A stretch of DNA of 64,000 nt from positions 1 to 64,000 of the forward strand of contig QKED01000003.1 in the NCBI GenBank assembly GCA_003252455.1, given 5' to 3'. Shown one piece after another: positions 13,736 to 15,261 of this stretch. Within the stretch, counting starts at the first letter, position 1, and every line of letters starts with the position of its first letter. The position numbers and the translations under genes are program-made. The notes beneath the pieces were generated by a model. That model made no database searches. It had not been told where the DNA came from and saw nothing but the letters and a program-made list of their open reading frames with translations. Source of the stretch: Gammaproteobacteria bacterium. Its GTDB lineage: Bacteria > Pseudomonadota > Gammaproteobacteria > Thiohalomonadales > Thiohalomonadaceae.

Positions 13736-13812
13736 CGGGGTGTAGCTCAGCCTGGTAGAGCACTGTCTTCGGGAGGCAGGGGCCGGAGGTTCGAATCCTC
13801 TCACCCCGACCA
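13736..13812 (+). tRNA. tRNA-Pro (CGG)
   Basis: A 77-base cloverleaf. The acceptor CGGGGTG pairs with CACCCCG, and the CCA is encoded (13810-13812). Anticodon stem CTGTC/GGCAG with loop TTCGGGA gives CGG; the T loop is TTCGAAT. It reads CCG codons. Confidence 0.95.
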
Positions 13813-14020: not shown

Positions 14021-14048
14021 TTGACTTATATTCCCTGCCGCTTATATT
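14021..14048 (+). promoter_or_regulatory. Promoter of sulfur-globule-like gene
   Basis: -35 TTGACT (14021-14026), 16-base spacer, -10 TATATT (14043-14048), about 97 bases before the start codon. The surrounding 13930-14050 stretch is clearly AT-richer than its neighbours, consistent with a strongly expressed gene. Nothing else was seen between 13851 and 14020. Confidence 0.65.
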
Positions 14049-14144
14049 GTGTGGAGCATTGACGCTGAGGGCGCGCATTGCACGTTGCCCCATGTCTCGC
14101 TACCTGCATTGCCCTACATAACCAAAAACCAAGGAGTTTGTCCC

Positions 14145-14819
14145 ATGAAACTGCGCACTCTGATCGCTACCGCCGTGCTGGCCGCCACCTCCACCTCCAC
14201 CCTGGCATGGTGGGGTAACGATGGCTGGGGTAACGGCAACGGTTACAACGATGGTTACTACAACGGTGACGGCTACGGCGACGGCGATGTCGACGGCAGC
14301 ATGAACTTCAGCATGCGCGGTCGCAGCAGCGCCCGTGGCTATGGCAACAACAACTACCGTGGTTACAACGGCTACCGTGGTTACAACGGCTATGGCCCCT
14401 ACGGCTACGCCCCTTACGGTTACGCCCCCGCCTACGGCGCCCCGGTGAACGCCGAGCAGGCCGAGGCCGCCCGCAAGGCCTTCGAAGAGCAGCAGAAGGC
14501 GGCCTTCGAGGCCCGCCAGAAGGCCTTCGAAGCGCACCAGAAGATGATGGCCGAGCGCATGGGTACCGCCCCGATGATGCAGGCCCCGATGCAGATGGAG
14601 CGCCCCAACTTCACCCCCGAGATGAGCATGGAAGAGCGCAAGGCCGCGATGGATGCCTTCGCTGCCAAGCAGCGCGAGGCCGCCGAGGCCCGTATGAAGG
14701 CCGCCCAGGAGCAGGCCGACAAGCGTAAGGCCGAGGCCGAGGCCCGCATGGCCGAGCAGAAGGCCGCTATGGACGCCCGCATGCCGGCTGCCCCTGCAGC
14801 CCCCGCCGCTGCCCAGTAA
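14145..14819 (+). CDS. Sulfur-globule-family-like secreted protein
   Basis: A 224-residue exported protein: signal peptide MKLRTLIATAVLAATSTSTLA, then WWGNDGWGNGNG and a Gly/Tyr/Asn/Asp-rich half with tandem NGYRGYNGY, GPYGYAPYGYAP repeats and MNFSMRGR. This composition resembles the envelope proteins of periplasmic sulfur globules in purple sulfur bacteria. The C-terminal half (about 100-210) is Ala/Glu/Lys/Met-rich, with long heptad-like helices, suggesting a coiled coil, and ends in an Ala/Pro tail. AAGGAG lies 10 bases before the ATG at 14145, which starts the clear signal peptide. The gene stands alone between its own promoter and a strong terminator. Function is inferred from composition only. 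Confidence 0.6.
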   Translation: MKLRTLIATAVLAATSTSTLAWWGNDGWGNGNGYNDGYYNGDGYGDGDVDGSMNFSMRGRSSARGYGNNNYRGYNGYRGYNGYGPYGYAPYGYAPAYGAPVNAEQAEAARKAFEEQQKAAFEARQKAFEAHQKMMAERMGTAPMMQAPMQMERPNFTPEMSMEERKAAMDAFAAKQREAAEARMKAAQEQADKRKAEAEARMAEQKAAMDARMPAAPAAPAAAQ

Positions 14820-14853: not shown

Positions 14854-14890
14854 AAAAAGCCCCGCCGGGTCTCCCGGCGGGGCTTTTTTT
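14854..14890. terminator. Strong bidirectional terminator
   Basis: AAAAAGCCCCGCCGGG, loop TCT, CCCGGCGGGGC then seven T. A 12-base GC-rich stem with A and T tracts on both sides serves the sulfur-globule-like gene (+) and possibly the small ORF at 14935 (-). Confidence 0.9.
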
Positions 14891-15184: not shown

Positions 15185-15261
15185 TGGTGGCGATGGCTGG
15201 ACTTGAACCAGCGACACCCGCATTATGAATGCGGTGCTCTAACCGACTGAGCTACATCGCC
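15185..15261 (-). tRNA. tRNA-Met (CAT), elongator
   Basis: A 77-base cloverleaf with acceptor GGCGATG/CATCGCC and encoded CCA (complement at 15185-15187). Anticodon stem CGCAT/ATGCG and loop TCATA give CAT. The C-G-type first pair and D-arm GCTCAGTCGGTTAGAGC fit the elongator, not the initiator. Confidence 0.93.

Follow-up and report, generated by a model that had tools for sequence, protein, structure and literature searches.

The protein coat of bacterial sulfur globules is poorly understood, including the relation of SgpD to the other Sgp proteins. That SGPs matter for sulfur storage has its basis in published work on Beggiatoa leptomitoformis, where transposon insertion into an sgp gene coincides with losing both the globules and lithotrophic growth (PMC7356093, excerpts). 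The gene at positions 14145–14819 of the window (the whole analysed stretch of DNA, 64,000 nucleotides) encodes a protein with an N-terminal half rich in Gly, Tyr and Asn and a C-terminal half that is predicted to be helical. Is this a sulfur globule protein (SGP), and to what is its helical half related?

A single open frame runs from ATG at 14145 to TAA at 14819 (224 codons). Its features and those of its flanks are collected in Table 1. Two promoter-like sites were found in the scanned region, compared with a mean of 0.5 in shuffled sequences. A terminator scan picked up part of the hairpin given in the table, at 14867–14885. Since a hairpin and a T run follow the frame, the gene looks monocistronic. 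It stands alone between a tRNA-Pro gene and a tRNA-Met gene, with no other sgp gene beside it. Beyond the tRNA genes lie, on the left, what we take from its translation to be an IspB-like gene and, on the right, presumably a YchF-like gene. A plasmid home was considered for the frame and rejected, as tblastn gave no match.

Table 1. Features of the gene at 14145–14819 and of its flanks, in positions of the window
Feature	Position	Strand	Basis or remark
tRNA-Pro, left flank, outside the gene	13736..13812	+	
Sigma-70-like promoter, TTGACT-N16-TATATT	14021..14048	+	10/12 consensus positions
Ribosome-binding site, AAGGAG	14131..14136	+	Sequence; eight bases 5' of ATG 14145
Putative Sec-type signal peptide, residues 1–21, likely cut A21/W22	14145..14207	+	Sequence
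SGP domain (PF17228), residues 22–111, Gly/Tyr/Asn/Trp-rich	14208..14477	+	Profile match
Predicted helix 1, residues 103–141, amphipathic, opening at junction AP-VNAEQ	14451..14567	+	Model, hydrophobic moment
Predicted Pro/Met-containing linker, residues 142–161	14568..14627	+	Model
Predicted helix 2, residues 162–212, Ala-rich, salt-bridge-rich	14628..14780	+	Model, salt-bridge count
Ala/Pro C-terminal end and stop codon	14781..14819	+	Sequence
Intrinsic terminator, hairpin then T run	14858..14884	+	Sequence; 12-bp stem, 3-base loop
tRNA-Met, right flank, outside the gene	15185..15261	-	

The Gly/Tyr half was examined with family profiles. PF17228 (Sulphur globule protein) matched residues 22–111 with an E value of 2.3e-13 and 51.2 bits, the curated cut-off being 26.7. 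The match was lost when this half was shuffled (0 of 10 shuffles matched), so the likeness to SGPs exceeds mere composition, and a composition artefact was ruled out as the source of the match. An earlier note, made from the letters of this DNA, had described this half as resembling sulfur globule proteins, pointed to WWGN and MNFSM motifs and proposed a profile search against the Sgp proteins. Both motifs are present, and the search returned the SGP family, not an unrelated Gly-rich one. NCBIfam gave sub-threshold matches only. Residues 22–100 contain 28% Gly, 19% Tyr, 14% Asn and 4% Trp, and Glu and Lys are absent. An MKLR start and a hydrophobic stretch were recognized by eye in residues 1–21, and A21, W22, W23 and G24 are invariant across 17 family members. 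AlphaFold2 predicted residues 1–100 to be disordered (pLDDT <50). The mature protein has a mass of 22.3 kDa. Cysteine is absent from the whole protein, which makes it less likely that this protein is joined covalently to the sulfur by a disulfide or persulfide. The protein is likely a coat protein of intracellular sulfur granules.

The host assembly (4.58 Mb, 118 contigs, 99.7% complete) contains three SGP genes, including this one. The other two encode tail-less paralogues of 132 aa (contig C63) and 125 aa (contig C84). Both match PF17228, and they are 76% and 56% identical to protein 14145–14819 over about 100 residues. These two genes are scattered and do not stand in tandem with the frame at 14145–14819. 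The C84 copy has a TTGACA-like site upstream; the same pattern found none for the C63 copy.

The genome also contains dsrA (569.9 bits) and, some 300 bases from it, a dsrB-like gene; soxB is present as well (886 bits, cut-off 550). The photosynthetic reaction centre family PF00124 had no match in the genome, which ruled out a phototrophic host. Judged by gene content, the host is a chemotrophic sulfur oxidiser of the Dsr/Sox route. The earlier note had taken the gene as a pointer to a sulfur-oxidising host and named sox and dsr genes as the check; the two genes bear it out.

In the host's own family, dsrA was above the cut-off in 15 of 20 genomes, and protein 14145–14819 matched 9 of the 20 at 1e-3. 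Across the class, 369 genomes were searched with SGP profile A2 (five tailed SGPs) at 1e-5 and with dsrA at 1e-60. SGPs were found in 46 genomes and dsrA in 117 (both in 40, SGP only in 6, dsrA only in 77, neither in 246); A2 was built on tailed proteins, and tail-less SGPs may be missed in these counts. The co-occurrence of SGP and dsrA had an odds ratio of 21 (P = 1e-16, Fisher test, kinship ignored). The SGP genomes without dsrA at 1e-60 were G086, G152, G204, G256, G301 and G334, two of which are incomplete (81% and 55%). PF00124 was found in none of 21 genomes with SGP matches and in 6 of the 369 class genomes. None of these six was among the 117 with dsrA, and the class sample therefore missed the phototrophic Chromatiaceae, which were reached via the order of genome G366 instead.

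Residues 101–224 contain 31% Ala, 14% Glu, 11% Met, 10% Gln, 8% Lys, 8% Arg and 1% Gly, and Tyr and Trp are absent. An AlphaFold2 model from an alignment of five sequences has helices at residues 103–141 and 162–212, mostly with pLDDT of about 60–79, the mean pLDDT of the model being 53.5. The hydrophobic moment of helix 1 was above that of shuffles (P = 0.029), whereas the hydrophobic stripe of helix 2 was not (P = 0.64). Net i/i+3–4 salt bridges numbered 11 in helix 1 (P = 0.000, 1000 shuffles) and 12 in helix 2 (shuffle mean 0.7, P = 0.002). In the model, the tail looks less like a classic coiled coil than like an amphipathic helix followed by a stiff, charged one. The coiled-coil half described in the earlier note is in part retained: helix 1 is amphipathic as it would require, but helix 2 is without a stripe and both helices are rich in salt bridges. 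The Ala/Pro C-terminal end has a similar counterpart in the tail-less paralogues. A relation to solved structures was sought with phmmer and rejected (best E value 0.02, short helical matches only). A TolA-like match of the tail was weak (E = 0.28).

For comparison, SgpD of Allochromatium vinosum was recovered by its published terminator hairpin, which was sought in 210 genomes of the order of G366. One match was found, in genome G488; the gene is at 836–1441 of locus L070 and its product is P0001 (Alvin_2515). The locus has the published promoter TTGATA-N13-TTATATACT, the first 22 residues of its product resemble a signal peptide, and another gene follows 216 bases downstream. From the sgpD stop codon to the hairpin (L070:1444–1501) we counted about 56 nt, and 45 nt are printed (PMC10386293, excerpts). 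P0001 begins with the signal peptide and WYAAPYQPVAP; then come a stretch whose first residues are SAEQ, a linker rich in Pro and the second helix. PF17228 did not match it. In the excerpted text of PMC10386293, the SAEQ stretch was modelled as a helix, and helices are placed at residues 13–58 and 126–142 of the mature protein. SgpD is described there as a possible coiled coil, and the same paper cautions about coiled-coil predictions. It is further reported as the most abundant globule protein, co-localising with sulfur globules in vivo, and is called almost restricted to Chromatiaceae; its deletion left globule size, number and turnover unchanged in A. vinosum (PMC10386293, excerpts).

The tail was compared with SgpD through profiles. 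A comparison by hhalign of SgpD with A2, which contains protein 14145–14819 and four other tailed SGPs, gave an E value of 2e-12 over 121 columns; three near-identical Thiodiazotropha rows dominate this profile. A local rerun scored 58.6 (E = 1.3e-8), whereas reversed SgpD scored 24.0 and the maxima of 100 shuffles each were 29.7 (full), 32.0 (region-wise) and 47.5 (hydrophobic/charge pattern kept). Judged by these profile scores, tailed SGPs as a group are related to SgpD by the tail module.

The direct comparison of protein 14145–14819 with SgpD was not significant, with a BLASTP E value of 0.11 (single comparison); for the tail and SgpD, class-preserving shuffles gave a z of 0.0, and 97 of 200 shuffles scored as well. 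The tail of 14145–14819 beat 200 of 200 class-preserving shuffles against the tails of L024, L045 and L053, and SgpD did the same against L024, L025, L026, L028 and L041. Against most other tested tails, the 14145–14819 tail did not clearly beat such shuffles. L024 was matched by both and is therefore a bridge. We infer the relation between protein 14145–14819 and SgpD via intermediates, the Sedimenticola and Thiodiazotropha proteins. Since the direct pair is without significance, the protein was not filed as SgpD; it is an SGP with a tail probably related to SgpD. A junction motif, a Pro-rich end followed by [TSN]-x-[ED]-Q, opens most tails and SgpD (40 of 48 scored rows, from 51 loci), and is illustrative, as the pattern was written after the sequences had been viewed. 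The junction of L024 reads TPQLTEEQ.

Judged from predicted proteins, the helical tail is not unique to protein 14145–14819, and the class has tailed SGPs in seven or more of its families. The earlier note had regarded the helical half as an added extension. As a private feature of this protein the extension had to be given up, with tailed SGPs widespread and a related module standing alone as SgpD of A. vinosum. In the host's own family, 10 of 20 genomes encode an SGP whose tail is charged and helical (G000, G001, G003, G004, G005, G006, G007, G008, G010 and G012; that of G006 is cut by a contig end). The other own-family tails are short, about 45–72 aa with one helix, and only L007 among them (3e-5) reaches the tail profile at 1e-4. 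Tail lengths across tailed SGPs range from about 45 to 180 aa. Long tails matching the tail profile A3 at 1e-5 or better occurred in families f46, f49, f118, f137, f141 and f153, which with the host's own family makes seven, and A3 included members of all but f118 and the matches of those families are by construction. A composition-based tail call marked 26 of 54 distinct proteins (one protein per locus), with L019 and L027 miscalled, the start of L053 placed too early and the tailed L044, L048, L050 and L055 omitted.

The neighbour genes of the tailed gene were compared with those of 18 other loci. Only L009 (G012, own family) shared one, ychF, which is 79% identical to that near the frame at 14145–14819. 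Since L009 has its tailed SGP beside this shared ychF, this one at least is probably an orthologue. The tailed SGPs of L024, L025, L026 and L028 are 38–43% identical to protein 14145–14819 in full alignment. A model of the Sedimenticola protein (L024) has helices at 100–138 and 187–244, with a mean pLDDT of 51.6. In a Thiodiazotropha symbiont, three sulfur globule protein types are highly expressed, the tailed ones not being specified in the excerpt (PMC11171427).

Other architectures were seen alongside these proteins. In Magnetovibrio blakemorei MV-1, a 506-aa frame (L027:3503–5020, + strand) starts with a helix-hairpin-helix (PF14520, 1.3e-6), continues through a part rich in Lys, Ala and Pro, a single stretch that looks by eye like a membrane span, and a Met-rich part, and ends in a C-terminal SGP domain (PF17228, 1e-7). 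From this order of parts, its product looks like a membrane-anchored sulfur globule protein. Just upstream is an SGP-like frame (PF17228, 21.2 bits, under the cut-off). In G155, a 394-aa frame (L052:48–1229, + strand) adjoins a tailed sgp gene, upstream of it, and encodes what looks by eye like a membrane span, along with a C-terminal part similar to SGP tails; its product is a possible candidate for a membrane partner. Proteins of L056, L060 and L064 (G262, G150 and G357, family f132) contain two SGP-like blocks per chain, an internal duplication of the SGP domain.

In the Chromatium order, tail profile A3 at 1e-6 matched 83 of 210 genomes. Of these 83, 50 had the architecture of their protein determined (30 taken directly from the search, 20 fetched by place). 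These 50 proteins comprised 37 with an SGP domain and a tail and 13 with a tail only (SgpD type); near-copies were counted repeatedly, 21 of the 37 coming from one genus (g271). A tail-less sgp gene was directly beside 34 of the 37 tailed SGPs and 0 of the 13 SgpD-type genes (Fisher P = 1.6e-9, kinship ignored, some flanks spanning only some hundred bases).

A quick-method tree built from 59 tail modules over 139 columns grouped every one of the 13 SgpD-type tails into a single clade (SH-aLRT 98). SGP domain plus tail versus tail only was a single change of state in this tree. The 14145–14819 tail was on a long branch (1.73) with no firm place, and no starred set held it. Because the fused form occurs in seven families and the solo form in one, loss of the SGP domain toward SgpD is the simpler direction in the unrooted tree. 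SgpD may be a tailed SGP minus its Gly/Tyr domain. In a wider form, SgpD, the least understood of the A. vinosum globule proteins, would be a derived tailed SGP, the two-module form would be ancestral in chemotrophic gammaproteobacteria, and a two-layer coat plan would be shared, with the helical layer covalently tied to the SGP layer in the majority of lineages and detached in the SgpD clade alone; we hold this wider form to be an evenly balanced proposition. Gene transfer is a possible alternative history of the fused and solo forms.

We consider it probable that protein 14145–14819 belongs to the envelope of periplasmic sulfur globules and has two modules, an SGP domain and an SgpD-related helical part. 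Its export would be Sec-dependent. The N-terminal module, of the SGP type known from SgpA/B/C, would bind the globule and form a Gly/Tyr layer on it. The C-terminal module, an amphipathic and then charged helical layer, would face outward or pack between SGP subunits. The tail would in this way add a second layer to a coat otherwise made of the two tail-less SGP paralogues. Counted against this explanation are the non-significant direct match to SgpD, the linker without P-x2-P, the short own-family tails, the low-confidence models, the 6 of 46 SGP genomes without dsrA and the lack of an adjoining sgp gene.

The helical tail might have an independent origin, its likeness to SgpD being convergent and both serving as charged spacers on the globule. 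Helices rich in Ala, Glu, Lys and Gln arise easily, the direct SgpD comparison fails the class-preserving control, tail length is variable (about 45–180 aa), and the 14145–14819 tail is on its 1.73 branch outside every starred set. We nevertheless judge this origin unlikely: against L024, L045 and L053 the same tail outscored every one of 200 class-preserving shuffles, module order and spacing agree, and most tails and SgpD have the junction motif in common, a motif chosen after viewing and so illustrative.

Rather doubtful, in our view, is an anchoring or cross-linking role of the helical half, which the earlier note had suggested as possible; the half would form a true coiled coil with itself or with a membrane or peptidoglycan partner. 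This role is compatible with the preferred reading of the N-terminal half and competes with it only over the function of the tail. The moment of helix 1 (P = 0.029) and the description of SgpD as a possible coiled coil (PMC10386293, excerpts) agree with it, and the TolA-like match is listed on the same side, though not significant (E = 0.28). However, helix 2 has no hydrophobic stripe (P = 0.64), both helices have the abundant i/i+3–4 salt bridges of lone charged helices, and the A. vinosum paper cautions on coiled-coil predictions and saw no visible effect of the sgpD deletion (PMC10386293, excerpts). The protein could also be a Gly/Tyr-rich periplasmic or surface protein unconnected with globules and SGP-like by composition. 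Gly-rich sequences are prone to false matches, and weak off-family matches to TrAA12 and Synaphin were indeed obtained, but the PF17228 score of 51.2 bits against a cut-off of 26.7, the 0 of 10 shuffles and the genome's two clear SGP paralogues, alongside dsr and sox, make such a protein very improbable.

The preferred reading, an SGP domain joined to an SgpD-related module, suggests how SGP-type and SgpD-type coat proteins are related. No statement of such an architecture was found in the searched, mostly open-access literature on sulfur globule proteins. The two-module proteins offer a testable link: the helical module is widespread and mostly comes joined to an SGP domain, which would make SgpD exceptional. 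Natural constructs for finding the globule-binding module are either part by itself (SGP domain or tail) and the two combined.

Among known systems, SgpA/B/C, compared via PF17228, resemble protein 14145–14819 in the putative Sec-type start, the likely A/WW mature end and the Gly/Tyr/Asn-rich domain. SgpA–C are 11–13 kDa (PMC10386293, excerpts), and protein 14145–14819 is larger because of its 120-residue helical half. The tailed SGP of L009 has the same SGP domain, helical tail and neighbouring ychF, but its tail is only 47 residues, one helix by length. The tailed SGPs of Sedimenticola (L024) and of Candidatus Thiodiazotropha and a lucinid symbiont (L025, L026 and L028) also combine an SGP domain with a two-helix tail. 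Each of their genes is 68–90 bases downstream of a tail-less sgp gene, whereas the gene at 14145–14819 is solitary. SgpD differs in two respects: it is without the Gly/Tyr SGP domain, and its linker is long with a P-x2-P run, whereas the linker of protein 14145–14819 is short with four prolines not spaced P-x2-P. The two proteins are alike in the putative signal peptide, the Trp-led mature start (W-Y in SgpD) and the succession of helix, Pro-bearing linker and helix. Their junctions read AP-SAEQ in SgpD and AP-VNAEQ in protein 14145–14819, and both are encoded by stand-alone genes with their own promoter and terminator.
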